Source of the DNA: Ruminococcus sp.
Lineage (GTDB): Bacteria; Bacillota; Clostridia; Oscillospirales; Ruminococcaceae
DNA: 64,000 nt
Assembly (NCBI RefSeq): GCF_017464355.1
Contig: NZ_JAFUAG010000045.1
Coordinates: forward strand, 62,001-126,000
Direction: 5' to 3'
The notes under the pieces were generated by a model that was not told where the DNA came from, did not search any database, and was given only the letters and a program-made list of their open reading frames with translations. The position numbers and the translations under genes are program-made. Positions 453 through 64,000 of the stretch are shown one piece after another. Every line of letters starts with the position of its first letter. The stretch's first letter is position 1.

Positions 453-1607
453 ATGAAAACTATCAGTATCCTAGGCTCAACAGGCTCTATCGGCACCCAG
501 GCATTGGAGGTCTGCCGTGAGCATAAAATTAAGGTAAAGGCGCTGGCAGCGTACTCAAATGTCAGGCTGCTGGCTGAACAGGCTTCGGAGTTCGGGGCAG
601 AGTATGTCTGCGTTTACGATGAGAAAAAGCTTGATGAACTCAAAGGTCTGCTATCGGGCAGGGAGGTCACTTTCCTGACGGGCATGGAGGGTCTTAAGAC
701 CATAGCTGCTCTTGACGGTGTGGATATCATGCTCAATTCCGTGGTGGGAATGGTCGGCCTTGTGCCTACCCTGACCGCAATCGAACACGGCACGGACATC
801 GCCCTTGCCAATAAGGAGACCCTTGTGGCAGGAGGAAAGCTGGTCATTGACTCCGCTAAGGAAAAGGGCGTTAAGATATATCCCGTGGACAGCGAGCATT
901 CAGCCATATTCCAGTCAAGGCAGGGCAATGAGATGAATGCTGTCAAGGGGATAATACTTACAGCCTCCGGCGGCCCGTTTTATGGCAAGACCGCCGATGA
1001 ACTGAAAAATGTCACCGTGGAGCAAGCCCTTGACCACCCTAACTGGTCCATGGGCAATAAAATAACTATCGACTCTGCAACGTTGATGAACAAGGGGCTT
1101 GAATTTATAGAAGCCATGTGGCTCTTTGACCTGCGTCCCGAGCAGATAGAGATAGTTGTCCACCGTGAGAGCGTTATACATTCAGCGGTGGAGTATGAGG
1201 ATAATTCCGTCATTGCACAGCTGGGCGTGCCCGATATGAAAATACCTATCCAGTACGCGCTGCTCTATCCGAAACGTGTACACTGCGATGTCAAGCACCT
1301 TTCCCTGACAGACTACGGCAGGCTGACCTTTGCAAAGCCCGACCACGATACTTTCAAATGCCTGACAGCCTGCATAAAAGCCGTCACCGAGGGCGGCATA
1401 CTTCCGGCGGCGGTAAACGGCGCCAATGAGCAGGCAGTTGCGGCTTTCCTGGCAGGGAAGATAAGCTTCCTGGGCATAGGCGAGCTTGTTACCGAAGTTC
1501 TTGAAAATACAGAAAATAAAGAGATACATGATGTCGAAGATATACTTGCCGCCGATAAGGCTGCGAGAGCATATGTGGCAGAACGAATAACAGAAAGGCA
1601 ATACTGA
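453..1607 (+). CDS. dxr: 1-deoxy-D-xylulose 5-phosphate reductoisomerase
   Basis: Dxr catalyses the NADPH-dependent rearrangement and reduction of DXP to MEP, the committed step of the non-mevalonate isoprenoid pathway. The 384-residue length is normal. Visible motifs are the N-terminal nucleotide-binding loop GSTGSIGTQALEV (about residues 7-19), ANKETLV, the metal-binding VDSEHSAIFQ and the ASGGPF loop, and NGANEQAVAAFL near the C-terminus. The stop overlaps the rseP start by one base (TGATG), implying translational coupling. ispG, another MEP gene, lies two genes downstream, so two pathway steps share this operon. Confidence 0.97.
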   Translation: MKTISILGSTGSIGTQALEVCREHKIKVKALAAYSNVRLLAEQASEFGAEYVCVYDEKKLDELKGLLSGREVTFLTGMEGLKTIAALDGVDIMLNSVVGMVGLVPTLTAIEHGTDIALANKETLVAGGKLVIDSAKEKGVKIYPVDSEHSAIFQSRQGNEMNAVKGIILTASGGPFYGKTADELKNVTVEQALDHPNWSMGNKITIDSATLMNKGLEFIEAMWLFDLRPEQIEIVVHRESVIHSAVEYEDNSVIAQLGVPDMKIPIQYALLYPKRVHCDVKHLSLTDYGRLTFAKPDHDTFKCLTACIKAVTEGGILPAAVNGANEQAVAAFLAGKISFLGIGELVTEVLENTENKEIHDVEDILAADKAARAYVAERITERQY

Positions 1608-54630: not shown

Positions 54631-56250
54631 ATGTTTAAGAAAAAATTCGGCATTTATGCCCTTACATTCGTTATGGCTGCAATGGGAATGACAGGCTGTT
54701 CGTCAGGCAGTTCTTCAAAAGAAGCGACAGGCGGTACGGCAGGAACTGCAGCTAAGTCTGCCGACAATGCAGGTTCAGACACATTCAGCGTAGTTTGCAC
54801 CATCTTCCCTGAATATGACTGGGTAAAGGAGATACTTGGCGATCACGCTGACAATGCTGAGATAACCTATCTGCTTGACAACGGTGTTGATCTGCACAGC
54901 TATAAGCCTACTGCTGATGACATTATGAAGATATCCAACTGCGACCTGTTCGTGTATGTGGGCGGAGAGTCTGACGAATGGGTAGAGGACGCTCTTGCAG
55001 AGGCCTCCAACAAGGATATGAAGGTCATTGAACTTATGGAAGTTCTCGGTGACTCCGCTAAGGTGGAGGAACTCAAGGAGGGTATGCAGGAAGATGAACA
55101 CGACCATGACCATGGTCACAGCAAAGAGGTCTCCACCTTCGAGGACGATGAAGTACAGGACAGACCTCTCTCCGACTGGGAGGGTGACTGGCAGTCCGCT
55201 TATCCGCTGGTGCTTGACGGTTCTCTCGATGAAGCCTGGGAGCATAAGTCTGAAGACGGCAGCATGACCGCCGAAGAGTACAAAGACTACTACACAAAGG
55301 GCTATAAGTCCGATTACGATGCTATCAGCATTCATGACGATCATATCAAGTTCACTGATAAGGACGGCAAAGAAACTGAGTCTGATTATGAGTATACAGG
55401 TTATTATATCCAGAACTGGTCAACAGGCACAAAGGCTGCTATGTACCGCTTTGAAGCCGTTGATAAGGAATCGGGCGCACCCGTCTATATCGAGTTCAAC
55501 GACCATATCATCGAGCCTGAAAAGGCAGAGCATTTCCATATACGCATGAGCAATGAGAGCTATGACGCTATCGTTGACCCTGAGGGCAACTGGCCTACTT
55601 TCTTTGATGCTGCACTATCTCCCGAAGAGGTGTGTGATGAAGTCATCGGCCACGGACACAGCGATGAGGACGAGGACGAAGATGAACACGAACACGAACA
55701 TGAAGAGGGCGAGGAAGAATACGACGAACACGTCTGGCTCTCTCTGAAAAATGCTAAGATACTCTGTGCTGAGATCGAGAAGAATGTAGAAGCTATCGAC
55801 CCCGCAAATGCCGCTGATTATAAGGCAAACCTTGACAGCTATGCTGCAAAGCTGGACGAACTTGACAACAGCTTCAAAACACTTGTGGACGGTTCTTACG
55901 TTAAGACACTTGTTTTCGGCGACAGATTTCCTTTCCGCTATTTTGTTGACGATTACGGCCTTGATTACTATGCCGCTTTCATCGGCTGCTCCGCTGAAAC
56001 AGAGGCAAGCTTTGAAACTATCACTTTCCTTTCGGAAAAGGTAAAGGAGCTTGACTGCAAGACTATCTTCACAATTGAAAATTCAGCCAAGGATATTGCC
56101 AACACTATAATCAGCACATCCGGCCAAAGTGTGGATATCGCAGAGCTGAACTCTCTGCAGTCCGTATCCCGGGAGGATATCGCAGGCGGCGCAAGCTATA
56201 TCTCGCTCATGCAGAAGAACTATGATGTTCTCGCAGCCGCTCTGAAATGA
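54631..56250 (+). CDS. Zinc ABC transporter binding lipoprotein with inserted ZinT domain
   Basis: A 539-residue lipoprotein (lipobox MTGC, Cys near residue 23). Residues 50-155 form the ZnuA N-lobe ([35 protein letters not shown] with the zinc His). At the position of the usual His-rich loop there is HDHDHGHS, then a complete ZinT domain (about 180-340; [38 protein letters not shown] with its His ligands), then a second acidic His-rich loop, and the ZnuA C-lobe from [13 protein letters not shown] (about 363) to the end. In AdcA proteins ZinT is at the C-terminus, so this order is unusual. No permease or ATPase gene is beside it. Confidence 0.9.
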
Positions 56251-56258
56251 GGTGCAGT

Positions 56259-57365
56259 ATGAGTAATAAAAAGATACCCGTAATTCTTATAACAGGCTAT
56301 CTCGGTTCAGGCAAGACCACCCTCATGCAGAACCTGTTAAAGCAGGAACAGCGCAGGATAGCACTTATCGTAAACGACATGGGCAGCGTCAACATAGATG
56401 CTGCTCTCCTGAACAAGAACCGTGACCGCATATCCTCCGTTGAAATGGTGGAACTGCAGAACGGCTGTATCTGCTGTACTCTCCGTGATGAGTTTATCGC
56501 AGAGATAGAGCGAATTTCCAAACTTCCCGATATCGAAGCTGTTTTCGTGGAAGCCTCGGGTATAAGCGAGCCTTCCAATATTGCCGCGTCCTTCGTTATC
56601 TACACTGAGGACCACTCCGAGACCAATGTGTACCTGAGTTCGGTTGTTTCAGTGGTAGACGCTGACCGTATCTACAATGAGTTCCTGCGTGAGATATCCA
56701 TGGAGAATGACACCGAGGAGGGCGACATCATAAACCTTATCATCGACCAGATAGAGTTCTGCGACCTGGTGATACTCAACAAGACCGACCTGCTGTGTGA
56801 AATGCAGATAGAGGAGGTAACTAAGGCTGTCCGTGATATCCAGTCCGAGGCGGAGATAATACCTGCTGTCAACAGTGAGGTCGATACAGACAAGATACTT
56901 CACGGCAAGGAGTTTGACTATCACAGCGTTCTCGCCTCATCTTCCATTCAGCGTGCGCTCAACACAAACGAACCCACCGATAAGGAAGCCTGCATGGACG
57001 AATACGGTATAACTTCCTTTGTGTATGAGGAAGTCCGCCCCTTTGACCGTGATAAATTCATGGCGCTGGTGGACGATTATCCGTCAGAGCTTATCCGCAC
57101 TAAGGGCTATATGTGGTTCGCTGACGACGATGTGCATATACAGCTCTTTGAACAGGCGGGCAGAAATGCAAGTGTCACCGAACTTAATGAGTGGCTGGCC
57201 TCCTGTCCGCAGGAAGAAGTTGATGCCATACTCGAAAATTATCCCGATGTAAAAGATGATTGGGATGATACCTACGGCGACCGTATCAACCAGCTGGTAT
57301 TTATCGGCAAGGGCTATAAAAAAGCGGATATCCTTGCCCGCCTTGAAAGCTGCCTGACACAATAA
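56259..57365 (+). CDS. COG0523-family GTPase (CobW/ZNG1-like)
   Basis: A 368-residue metallochaperone-type GTPase. Walker A is [13 protein letters not shown] near residue 12, the metal-binding motif is [12 protein letters not shown] (CxCC) near residue 68, and the guanine motif is NKTD near residue 170. The C-terminal CobW domain spans about 250-365. Zinc-starvation-induced members are thought to deliver zinc to essential enzymes. ATG 56259 follows GAGGTG; the longer reading frame begins inside the preceding stop region. It lies eight bases after the zinc-binding protein gene. Confidence 0.9.
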
Positions 57366-60667: not shown

Positions 60668-60696
60668 TTGACAAATATGAAATAGTGATGTATAAT
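60668..60696 (+). promoter_or_regulatory. Consensus promoter of the first LRR-dockerin gene
   Basis: TTGACA (60668-60673), 17 bases, TATAAT (60691-60696). The promoter of the second LRR gene (62239-62267) has the same boxes and an almost identical spacer. Confidence 0.85.
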
Positions 60697-60714
60697 TTAA
60701 ATGAGGTGGAGAAT

Positions 60715-60771
60715 ATGTATACAGTAAATATATTACCAAATTGTAAACGGGGGGGGGGCTTGCTGAGGTAG
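60715..60771 (+). CDS. Leader ORF 1, 18 codons, frame-shifted by a G10 tract
   Basis: A good ribosome site, GAGGTGG, stands five bases before ATG 60715. The ORF runs through CGG and a run of ten G (60749-60758) to TAG at 60769. With one more G (or two fewer) the frame would stay open to TAG 60819-60821 and give a 35-residue peptide ending LAEVGLCSLCIFSSEIVIKA. That end resembles the leader 2 peptide (LAAAGLVLVPIFSSFIV...). The 60819 stop lies inside the left arm of the terminator. Whether it is translated is not known. Confidence 0.55.
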   Translation: MYTVNILPNCKRGGGLLR

Positions 60772-60814
60772 GCCTTTGTTCACTGTGCATATTTTCATCT
60801 GAAATAGTTATCAA

Positions 60815-60853
60815 GGCGTAGTGCGTATGGGCGCACTGCGCCATTTTTATTTT
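60815..60853 (+). terminator. Attenuator hairpin before the first LRR-dockerin gene
   Basis: GGCGTAGTGCG (60815-60825) pairs with CGCACTGCGCC (60832-60842) over 11 bases (one G-T), and ATTTTTATTTT follows. It lies between promoter and ATG 60867, so it can stop transcription before the gene. The stop codon of the in-frame leader peptide lies within the left arm. Confidence 0.75.
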
Positions 60854-60866
60854 AGGAGGAATATAT

Positions 60867-62165
60867 ATGAACAAAAAAGTAATTACGGGACTCATGGCAC
60901 TGACACTGGTGTTCGGTGCAGCAGGGGTAGTGCCTGCAAATGTTGCGGGCTTTGGCACGGTCGTTACGGCTTCTGCCGAGAATCCCGCTGAGGATTTTAA
61001 CTGGGAGATCATAGACGACGATACCATAAGGCTGACGAAATACAAGGGCACCGCAAAGGACGTGGTGGTACCTTCGATCGTAGCCGACAGAACAGTTACT
61101 CAGGTTGACAATGGTGCTTTTAAGGGGACTGACGTAACAAGTGTTGTACTGCCCGATACTGTCGATACAATGGGCTGGGAAGTCTTTAGAAACTGCAAGG
61201 AACTTAAGACCCTTACACTGCCTAAAGAGGCAAAGTCAATGGGGGATGGAGTTTGCTCTTACTGCCCGTCACTTGAGTCGGTAAACATTCCCGAAGGCAT
61301 AGAAGTGATTGAATATAAGTCATTTGTGGGCTGTACCTCACTGAAAGAAGTGACCATACCCGCAAGCGTTAAGGAAATCGACCATGAAGCTTTCAGTGGT
61401 TGTACATCGTTGAGCAAGGTCACGTTCAAAGAAGGCAGCCTGAAGACGATAGGTATGTCTTTCCTGAACTGCACATCTCTTAAAGAAGTGATAATCCCCG
61501 AGGGTGTTACCGAGATACACGGTGCTACTTTCCTGAACTGTACATCTCTTGAAAAGGTAGTGCTTCCCTCTACGCTGAAAGAGCTTGCTACACGGGGTTA
61601 CAGCAGTGGTAGCTCTGAAGGTGCATTCACAAATTGTACGTCACTGACATCTATCGTTCTGCCTGAAAATCTTACCGAAGTAGATGACTATACATTCGCT
61701 AACTGTACCGCACTGAAAGATGTAAAGATCGAGAGCAATGTACTGGATAGGATAGGTGTGGACGCATTCAAAAATTGCCCCGAACTCAAAGAGATAACTC
61801 TGCCCAAGTCTATTACAACAATGAAGAAAACAGGTCTGCTTAGTAACATAGATGAAAACGGAGAAAATGTGCTGAAATCCGACTTTATACTGCACTGCTA
61901 TAAAGGCAGCACGGCTGAGGTGTATGCGTTAAATTCAGGTCTGCCTGCGGCTAATATCGACTACCTGCCAGACATCGTCAAAGGCGATATGAACGGCGAC
62001 GGCGACGTCAATGTCACCGATGTCAATATCATCGCTGCTCACGTTAAAAGCATAAGGAGCCTTGCAGAAGTATCCCGCGGCGATGTCAACGGCGACGGTG
62101 ATATCAACGTAACAGACCTCATGCTGGTCGCAGCCCATGTTAAGGGCATAAAGTCACTGAAATAA
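60867..62165 (+). CDS. Secreted leucine-rich-repeat (BspA-type) protein with dockerin
   Basis: A 432-residue secreted protein. After the signal peptide (about 1-34) come about ten LRR_5/BspA-type repeats (residues 60-350; units such as CTSLKEVTIPASVKEIDHEAF and CTSLEKVVLPSTLKEL), a surface-binding scaffold. A type I dockerin follows (372-431; DMNGDGDVNVTDVNIIAAHV, DVNGDGDINVTDLMLVAAHV), with two calcium loops. It probably docks onto a cohesin and mediates adhesion to host or plant material. Its start follows AGGAGGA. The gene lies downstream of a phase-variable leader and hairpin. Confidence 0.93.
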   Translation: MNKKVITGLMALTLVFGAAGVVPANVAGFGTVVTASAENPAEDFNWEIIDDDTIRLTKYKGTAKDVVVPSIVADRTVTQVDNGAFKGTDVTSVVLPDTVDTMGWEVFRNCKELKTLTLPKEAKSMGDGVCSYCPSLESVNIPEGIEVIEYKSFVGCTSLKEVTIPASVKEIDHEAFSGCTSLSKVTFKEGSLKTIGMSFLNCTSLKEVIIPEGVTEIHGATFLNCTSLEKVVLPSTLKELATRGYSSGSSEGAFTNCTSLTSIVLPENLTEVDDYTFANCTALKDVKIESNVLDRIGVDAFKNCPELKEITLPKSITTMKKTGLLSNIDENGENVLKSDFILHCYKGSTAEVYALNSGLPAANIDYLPDIVKGDMNGDGDVNVTDVNIIAAHVKSIRSLAEVSRGDVNGDGDINVTDLMLVAAHVKGIKSLK

Positions 62166-62238: not shown

Positions 62239-62267
62239 TTGACATATATGAAAAAATGATGTATAAT
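62239..62267 (+). promoter_or_regulatory. Consensus promoter of the second LRR-dockerin gene
   Basis: TTGACA (62239-62244), 17 bases, TATAAT (62262-62267). Confidence 0.83.
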
Positions 62268-62286: not shown

Positions 62287-62400
62287 ATGAGTGGGATGGA
62301 TATAGGTTCAGATAGTAGATATAGCAGGCTTGCCGCGGCAGGCCTTGTTTTGGTGCCCATATTTTCATCTTTTATAGTCAAAGAGGTGCAGCGACGATAG
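62287..62400 (+). CDS. Leader ORF 2, 37 codons
   Basis: ATG 62287 follows AAAGGTGG at a six-base spacing. The ORF is intact to TAG 62398-62400. Its peptide, starting MSGMDIGSDSRYSRLAAAGL and ending IFSSFIVKEVQRR, shares the 'LA..GL.....IFSS.IV' pattern with the in-frame form of leader ORF 1. The stop falls in the loop of the hairpin that follows, so a ribosome reaching it would keep the hairpin from forming. It has no G tract. Confidence 0.55.
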   Translation: MSGMDIGSDSRYSRLAAAGLVLVPIFSSFIVKEVQRR

Positions 62401-62440: not shown

Positions 62441-64000
62441 ATGAAAACAAAGAAGATCGCAGCAGGTGTAATGGCACTTGCCCTGGTGTTCGGAACAATG
62501 GCAGCTGTCCCCACAGAGAACGGCTTTGGCTTCTTCGGCGGGATAAGCGCAAGCGCAGCCGCAGAGACCAAGAACTGGGGCACCAATGCCGAGTATACTA
62601 TCGATGAGTCGACCATGACAGTTACTGTTTCTCCCAAAGAGGGCAGCGACGGTGTACTTTCCGACAAGACACCTTTTATGTTCAATAAGGATATAAAGCA
62701 CGTTGTCATCAGCGAGGGCATAACCGAAATAAGCGACAATGCTTTCTATATGTGCGAAAACCTTGAAGACGTTGAACTGCCTCAGTCTTTAAGAGAGATA
62801 GGACAGAGCGCTTTCAAAGGCACCAAGGCCGAGAAGGTCTGCAAGGACGATAACAGGCTGAACGTTATCGGCAAGTGGATAATTTCCACCACCTCAGAAT
62901 CCCATGACGACCAGAATGCCGACTATGTCATTCCTGCAGGCATAAAGGGTATCGCAGCCCGTGCTTTTGAGTACGCTACTATCAGCTCTCTCACTCTGCC
63001 CGAGTCTGTTGAGACCATAGGCAAAAACGCATTCTTCAACACCGATCTTCAGGAGATCAATTTCCCAAACAATTCCGAGGTGCGTATAGGTGACTATGCT
63101 TTCCACGGCACTAAGTTCAAAGAGCTCACCGTTCCCGCAAATGCAATTCTGGGCGCAGGTGCTTTCTACGGCTGTACCGATCTCAAAAGTGTGGATATCG
63201 TTGAGGGTGTTCCTGCTATAGGTAAAAGTGCTTTTGCTGACTGCGGAAACCTGATGAAAGTAACTATACCCTATTCGGTAGAAAGTGTAGGCGAGGACGC
63301 TTTCAGGGGTACAGGCATTGTATATCAGCAGAATTCAGAGCCTTTCGTTACTGTTTCTGATTGGCTGGTAGCTGTACATGATAAGTCTGAGTCTCTCACT
63401 GTTCCCGAGGGCATTGTTGGTATCGCTGATAATATGGGTCTTAAGGGTGAGCCAAAGCTGCCAAAGACTCTCAGGTGCATAGGCAGCTATGCAGTAAAGG
63501 GCGACGGCAAGACCGAGCATGAGACTCTGGAGATTCCCGCATCTGTAAAGTTTATCTCAGAGCACGCCTTCCATGACTATATAGCCAAGGAGCTTGTGCT
63601 GAATGAGGGCCTTGAATTTATCGGCAAGGAAGCTTTCAGCAGCATCACAGATAACGATATTACTCTCCCTGCTTCTGTGGAATATGTTGAATGCGGTGCT
63701 TTTGGCGGGCTGTACGCACAAGGCCGTTCCATAACTGTCCTGAACCCAGATTGTGTACTGAGTTGTGATGAACCTCTGCTGCCTAACATATTCATACCGA
63801 CTTTTGTTGTCGATCGTGTCTATGGTTATACAGGCAGTACCGCTGAGGCTCTCTGCAAAGCCTACCATGATGACAGCAAAAGGAACGATGATTCAGAGCC
63901 CATGCTTTTCGTGCCCATTGACGGCAAGCCTGATGAGGGTGATGATACCGTCAAAGGCGACCTGAACGGCGACGGTGAAGTAAATGTTACCGATGTCAAC
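62441..64000 (+). CDS. Secreted leucine-rich-repeat (BspA-type) protein with dockerin, 3' part outside
   Basis: An open frame of 520 codons to the right edge. After the signal peptide (about 1-40) come BspA/LRR_5 repeats (from ISEGITEISDNAFYMCENLEDV, then KGIAARAF..., IPYSVESVGEDAFRG, ASVKFISEHAF). At the edge starts a type I dockerin (GDLNGDGEVNVTDVN), so at least one more dockerin half lies beyond. It is a diverged relative of the preceding gene, with a shared leader architecture. The start follows AAGGAGG. The protein end is not in the window. Confidence 0.92.
   Translation, partial: MKTKKIAAGVMALALVFGTMAAVPTENGFGFFGGISASAAAETKNWGTNAEYTIDESTMTVTVSPKEGSDGVLSDKTPFMFNKDIKHVVISEGITEISDNAFYMCENLEDVELPQSLREIGQSAFKGTKAEKVCKDDNRLNVIGKWIISTTSESHDDQNADYVIPAGIKGIAARAFEYATISSLTLPESVETIGKNAFFNTDLQEINFPNNSEVRIGDYAFHGTKFKELTVPANAILGAGAFYGCTDLKSVDIVEGVPAIGKSAFADCGNLMKVTIPYSVESVGEDAFRGTGIVYQQNSEPFVTVSDWLVAVHDKSESLTVPEGIVGIADNMGLKGEPKLPKTLRCIGSYAVKGDGKTEHETLEIPASVKFISEHAFHDYIAKELVLNEGLEFIGKEAFSSITDNDITLPASVEYVECGAFGGLYAQGRSITVLNPDCVLSCDEPLLPNIFIPTFVVDRVYGYTGSTAEALCKAYHDDSKRNDDSEPMLFVPIDGKPDEGDDTVKGDLNGDGEVNVTDVN

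Follow-up and report, generated by a model that had tools for sequence, protein, structure and literature searches.

The BspA-type LRR–dockerin gene near the end of the window (the whole stretch of 64,000 nucleotides that was analysed) is probably controlled by a phase-variable, translation-dependent transcription attenuator, a reading to which, judging from the sequence, a probability of roughly three in four is assigned. This reading had been put forward with hedges in the earlier note on this DNA, and it is now favoured by comparative evidence and by the analogy with the pil1 locus of Streptococcus gallolyticus. The support consists of homologous leaders with runs of 6 to 12 G, a reading frame that is reserved for entry into the terminator, a mixture of predicted states, one-G differences between species, intact leader versions that have no G run, and the S. 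gallolyticus precedent.

Results

The G10 leader and its terminator

The features of the locus are collected in Table 1. As the earlier note had described, the leader has a ribosome-binding site and an ORF starting at ATG 60715, which is broken by the run of ten G, all within 60704–60771; with this tract length the ORF has 18 codons and stops at TAG 60769–60771. The claim that one added or two lost G would restore the ORF up to TAG 60819 also holds: the G11 version has 35 codons and ends at TAG 60819–60821 in the left arm of the hairpin, and the G8 version, having the identical stop, is one codon shorter. The hairpin over this stop (60815–60842) is indeed a strong terminator, as had been proposed, with 12 base pairs, a folding energy of -23.8 kcal/mol (z -5.2) and the T-rich tail ATTTTTATTT directly 3' of it. 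The start signals recur in relatives, with a -35 box that begins with TTGAC in seven of the eight leader copies compared, and with a purine-rich site at the position of the ribosome-binding site in a 22-copy leader alignment.

Table 1. Coordinates of the leader, the structural genes and the neighbouring paralogous leader in the window
Feature	Position	Strand	Evidence
Leader promoter, TTGACA-17-TATAAT	60668..60696	+	consensus match 12/12
Leader-ORF ribosome-binding site, AGGTGG	60704..60709	+	sequence
Long-range stem P1, 5' arm with the leader start codon (paired 60709-60718, 60721-60725)	60709..60725	+	MFE fold; RNAalifold; pair counts
G10 leader ORF, 18 codons, stop TAG 60769-60771, predicted OFF	60715..60771	+	
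G10 tract, proposed slipping switch	60749..60758	+	sequence; homologous copies
ON-frame second half of the leader ORF, to TAG 60819-60821 in the terminator left arm	60759..60821	+	
Stem P1, 3' arm	60782..60796	+	MFE fold; RNAalifold, 7 copies; pair counts, 22 copies
Intrinsic terminator hairpin, 12 pairs, then ATTTTTATTTT	60815..60842	+	folding; covariation
Structural-gene ribosome-binding site	60854..60860	+	sequence
Putatively controlled gene, encoding a 432-aa BspA-type LRR–dockerin protein	60867..62165	+	LRR_5 1.9e-62, Dockerin_1 4.7e-9
Promoter of the paralogous neighbouring leader	62239..62267	+	consensus match 12/12
Paralogous leader ORF (W2, L031), 37 codons, without G run	62287..62400	+	sequence
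Second LRR gene, extends past the window end	62441..64000	+	LRR_5 4.5e-53

A run of eight or more G occurs only once in the window (60749–60758). It gives 3 overlapping G8 matches, a count attained by 20 of 100 shuffles, for which the mean is 1.31. The G run by itself is within chance expectation, and its significance rests on its context and its relatives. In searches with the covariance models of Rfam 15, the window leader matches no family, and neither do the leaders in 20 relative loci (four of which were also searched at looser cut-offs); phage and plasmid records have no match to the window leader.

The leader of the neighbouring gene is 68% identical to the G10 leader as DNA over 205 bases, and its ORF (ATG 62287) runs into a terminator hairpin of its own (left arm at about 62385–62393), which is weaker than the hairpin of the G10 leader (-13.7 kcal/mol, z -1.5). 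The resemblance noticed previously between the restored C-terminal part LAEVGLCSLCIFSSEIVIKA and the intact neighbouring leader RLAAAGLVLVPIFSSFIVKEVQRR is confirmed, and by the present reading the neighbouring leader (62287–62400) would be a locked-ON form. The search of genome contigs for relatives of the LRR–dockerin protein itself gives one distant match, in a MAG, which was left unused.

Homologous leaders within one family

In the genome of the window (3.48 Mb in 49 contigs), a DNA search finds the neighbouring leader and a G9 copy on contig C31, before a lipoprotein-like gene. A covariance model (R1), built from seven leader copies and searched across genomes, has matches in seven of the 29 genomes of the window genus, reduced to five of 29 on inspection, when the matches in G003 and G013 proved not to be leaders. 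It also has matches in five of the 297 genomes of a family sample (with stricter filters), in 10 of the 15 genomes of genus g74, where one genome (G686) alone has 11 copies, in three of the 40 genomes of genus g16 and in one of the 16 genomes of genus g28. When five more copies, added by inspecting sites with eight or more G, are included, the total is 57 homologous leaders in 19 genomes of four genera, all of one family.

A run of 6 to 12 G is present in 50 of these 57 leaders and absent from the other seven. The tract lengths are G6 in one copy (L044, in which the run is interrupted and was counted by its longest piece), G7 in two, G8 in two, G9 in 18, G10 in five, G11 in 18 and G12 in four; this count includes a copy without a start (L072), which is outside the 49 predicted states described below.

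Sites with eight or more G are of the leader type in nine of 11 cases in genome G101, the other two being at contig ends, and in two of 10 cases in the genome of the window, where the sites in contigs C14, C22, C27, C34, C37, C41, C44 and C47 are not of the leader type on inspection. The same was found for one site in G023 (C45) and two in G190 (C24). In G000, the runs not of the leader type are a G21 run at the end of C41 (L109) and G12 runs in C14 (L104) and C34 (L107). Dropped before the counts were three weak model matches that are not leaders on inspection (L025, L026, L035), short DNA matches (L004 and L010 after inspection; L008, L009, L011, L012 and L016 for the short match) and fragments at contig ends (L117, L121–L123). 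Contig ends fall within or close to G runs in G101 (C9, C27), G190 (C35) and G684 (C1, C16, C24, C36, C38), and leader sequence is present at three such ends (G190 C35, G684 C36 and G684 C38). As contigs end in G runs, the leader copies are probably undercounted. An order-wide pattern search finds one of 394 genomes, a family member, and none of the 352 genomes outside the family, a weak negative since the pattern also missed the genome of the window.

A reading frame reserved for the terminator

For the frame comparison, the target frame was set by the position of the stop in the left arm of the terminator (motif GRCRTWRT), not by openness, and it was defined after the leader frames had already been inspected. 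Of the 38 motif-bearing copies, 35 have no stop in the target frame between the G run and the motif, as against 6.2 expected from dinucleotide shuffles; for the remaining two frames this holds in four of 76 cases. When the copies are clustered at 80% identity, the target frame is open in all members of 12 of the 14 clusters and in some members of all 14, where 2.5 are expected; because the leader copies are related, the shuffle expectations overstate their independence. In one copy (L052) the target frame is open but the motif is not a stop, such that the ORF runs on, and in the three copies with a closed arm-TAG frame (L041, L063, L064) another frame reads through the whole hairpin. The seven of 45 G-run copies that have no motif were set aside; three of these (L021, L022, L033) have a class with a stop in the arm, one (L028) has none, and three (L037, L051, L054) are uncertain.

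In 45 of the 57 copies a frame class stops between positions +2 and +19 of the left arm, in 26 of them at exactly +8, and 89 of the 96 stops that fall short of the hairpin are located 16–65 nt before the left arm. In the window copy and in most relatives, one frame class stops in or beyond the hairpin and the others stop well before it. The exceptions are L028, in which no class reaches the hairpin, and L043, L051, L053, L113, L114 and L116, in which two classes do, which makes the ON/OFF state of these six copies less sharp.

Predicted states and tract differences between species

A copy is counted as predicted ON when its leader stop is at most 8 nt before the left arm or further on. By this definition 11 of 49 copies are ON (in five of these, L043, L051, L053, L113 and L114, a second class gets to the hairpin as well), 29 need the loss of one G, seven, including the window copy, need the gain of one G, one could be switched by either change, and one (L028) is unable to be ON. 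The class that is one G too long thus has 29 of 49 copies, where an even spread would give about 16, and it includes ten copies of G686; the excess may reflect selection for the OFF state, leaky slippage by +1, or relatedness.

Comparison of matching loci between species, using one genome per species, indicates that the tract length changes between species. Three pairs of loci from different species, with downstream proteins that are 94–98% identical, differ by one G: L036 (G10) and L037 (G9), with 264 of 270 residues identical; L041 (G10) and L066 (G9), with 432 of 455 identical and an additional one-T difference beyond the G run; and L043 (G11) and L063 (G12), with 233 of 247 identical. Other matching loci of different species have equal tracts (L041 and L064, G10; L066 and L060, G9; L043 and L057, G11).

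Five of the seven G-less leaders (W2, L029, L023, L124, L125) have a single intact ORF of 35–38 codons that runs into the hairpin, as if locked ON; one of them (L029) is a close sister of a G7 copy in the same genome (L022). The other two (L024, L034), with leaders that stop after three and seven codons, respectively, may be decayed or misread.

RNA structure and leader peptide

The whole window leader has a fold with z -5.3 (MFE). In both the single fold of the window copy and the RNAalifold consensus of seven copies, the leader start region is paired with bases located about 70 nt further on (stem P1), and the terminator is also formed. In an alignment of 22 diverse copies, chosen from the 57 such that L031 (W2) and other near-duplicates are left out, 18 named pairs hold in 96.2% of the cells. 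Two-sided changes occur at eight pairs, six in the terminator and two in the start-codon stem; the shuffle mean is 4.1, and two of 500 shuffles are as high. From these comparisons the terminator structure is well supported and stem P1 moderately supported, and it is possible that P1, as modelled over the leader start codon, tunes initiation.

When six subfamilies are pooled, pN/pS is about 0.81 in the part before the G run and about 0.78 in the part after it, single subfamilies ranging from 0 to 1.7, and the leader substitutions are spread nearly evenly over the codon positions, although their numbers are small. These values lean towards the view that the act of translating the leader is what matters and that the peptide is mostly a by-product; it is a lean rather than proof, because of the small numbers, the scatter between subfamilies and the confounding RNA pairing, which also constrains the leader sequences.

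Genes behind the leaders

The domains found in 53 downstream proteins are LRR_5 (24), LytTR with response regulator (four), ABC_tran (four), dockerin (three), VTC (two) and acyltransferase (one), and many of the other proteins start, by eye, like secreted ones. The 53 are the 54 downstream ORFs minus that of L056, which is 415 bases off; L070 has no ORF, and L124 and L125 are outside the set. The kinds of gene behind the leaders include BspA-type LRR proteins, LytTR response regulators (behind L043, L053, L057 and L063), an ABC transporter, VTC-domain genes (behind L051 and L054) and an acyltransferase (behind L032). The odds seem about even that the promoter, leader, G tract and terminator form a modular cassette placed before dozens of unrelated genes in four genera, that each cell would have a random ON/OFF combination of surface and regulatory genes, and that the start-codon stem adds a second control. 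If a LytTR regulator is phase-variable, the switch would spread to its regulon. For the four LytTR response regulators, an own promoter is not clear by eye.

Two further elements are seen near some leaders. In L051, the G11 leader is followed after about 80 nt by a c-di-GMP-I riboswitch (1331–1422, minus strand), which has the same orientation and precedes the VTC-domain gene; this arrangement reads as two switches in series. In L040, L042, L067, L071 and L115, a second conserved stretch (GGAGGTGATTGGAAA...CAGCAAAG...CTTTGCTG...AGTCTGC) is located between the terminator and the signal peptide, and in L040, L042 and L067 this stretch has no stop in the reading frame of the gene.

Discussion

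Proposed mechanism and alternatives

The proposed mechanism takes the parts of the leader, the reserved frame, the homologous family and the tract differences between species as read from the genomes, and from these we infer the transcription start site, slippage in the population, translation of the leader and antitermination. RNA polymerase would start near 60703 and a ribosome at ATG 60715. With 8 or 11 G, the ribosome would reach TAG 60819 and occupy the hairpin's left arm, which would keep the terminator from forming and let the LRR–dockerin gene be transcribed. A tract of 9 or 10 G, as in the assembly (G10), would make the ribosome stop 44–49 nt before the hairpin; the terminator would then form and the gene would be off, apart from leak. 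Slipped-strand gain or loss of G at replication would flip the state; translating the leader would be the signal, and the peptide mostly a by-product. Several observations weigh against this mechanism: the equal tracts at other matching loci of different species, the excess of copies with one G too many, the copies in which no class or two classes reach the hairpin, the very short leaders of L024 and L034, and the closed arm-TAG frame of L041, L063 and L064.

Another reading of a homopolymer within an ORF is that it is a fixed slippery tract for programmed ribosomal frameshifting or polymerase slippage, with the output set by the efficiency of slippage and not by mutation. Homopolymers permit slips by re-pairing, the single class that a +1 shift would bring into the right frame holds 29 of 49 copies, and many g74 copies have a stop immediately after the run. 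However, all three classes occur, even among near-identical leaders of close relatives, such that one fixed programmed shift cannot serve every copy, and five G-less copies simply fuse the frames; this reading is considered unlikely. The tract might also be the target of a C/U-rich sRNA, with its length grading the binding, as described for RepG and the tlpB leader of Helicobacter pylori in the available part of PMC8295292. A variable G run in an mRNA leader is common to both cases, but tlpB/RepG acts by sRNA binding, no leader ORF running into a terminator is mentioned in that part of the paper (PMC8295292), and both the reserved frame into the terminator arm and the G-less intact leaders would be left unexplained, which makes a role as sRNA target improbable here.

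Slightly less probable again is that the leader encodes a functional small peptide, made in a phase-variable way, and that the hairpin serves only to end or protect its message. There is some peptide likeness across copies (AQN..S and ..KA*; L038 compared with L124), but part of the shared residues is on paired RNA stretches, and the pooled pN/pS values and the near-even changes over codon positions, small as the numbers are, speak against a peptide function. The strong fold of the whole leader and the conserved stems would suit a constitutive structured leader, acting for example in RNA stability or pausing, with ORFs that are accidental; the open frame in 35 of 38 copies and the near-fixed position of the stop in the left arm argue against this reading, which is the least probable of those considered.

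Relation to known systems

In pyrBI-type attenuation of Escherichia coli, the leader ORF enters the terminator and a ribosome close by blocks the hairpin; control is by nucleotide level and not, unlike the reading preferred for the G-run leader, by a mutable repeat. The closest precedent is the pil1 leader of Streptococcus gallolyticus, where, according to the available part of Danne et al. 2014 (PMC3894217), GCAGA repeats shift the leader frame, as established with variants and mutants, and transcription is higher when the leader is longer and stops beside, inside or past the hairpin; pil3 is similar. As far as that part describes it (PMC3894217), pil1 and the G-run leader, as interpreted here, have in common a leader ORF that has its own ribosome site and contains a repeat of variable length, a premature terminator whose hairpin is approached, entered or passed by the stop when the frame changes, a low-expression stop well upstream, and a surface structure as what is controlled. 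In the window, likewise, the leader ORF with its start signals is 5' of a premature terminator, and the repeat unit, one G, is not a multiple of three. The window locus is not itself a pil1 or pil3 locus with GCAGA repeats and pilus genes, having instead a G run and an LRR–dockerin gene.

The pil1 repeat has five bases and is present in 17–26 copies in the named variants (13 in pil3), and two pilus operons are concerned, in the part of PMC3894217 that is available. The G-run leader has a homopolymer, a conserved RNA with a start stem, many gene types behind it and four genera as hosts. The pil1 mechanism is proven by mutants (PMC3894217, same part), whereas the G-run leader is known from sequence alone. 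By this analogy, the logic of phase-variable attenuation is already known, and what appears to be new is the homopolymer form, the conserved RNA stem on the leader start and the dispersal before many genes. In a literature search of titles and abstract openings, with PMC8632094 checked in its available part and preprints and most subscription papers beyond its scope, no recognisable account of the G-run leader or of homopolymer-based phase-variable attenuation was found.

If the preferred reading of phase-variable attenuation is true, a little-studied bacterial family has a system of random surface variation that is missed by gene finders, because the variable tract is outside both the structural gene and the promoter. 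ON copies would then be predictable from sequence, and attenuation-based phase variation would be a reusable module that extends beyond two pilus operons. Consensus assemblies would hide the switching, and some contigs end in G tracts.

Other features of the window

The gene content suggests a gut or rumen habitat of the source organism. At 54631–57365 of the window, a CobW-type GTPase comes after a protein with ZinT and ZnuA domains, and the two are probably a zinc-uptake cluster.
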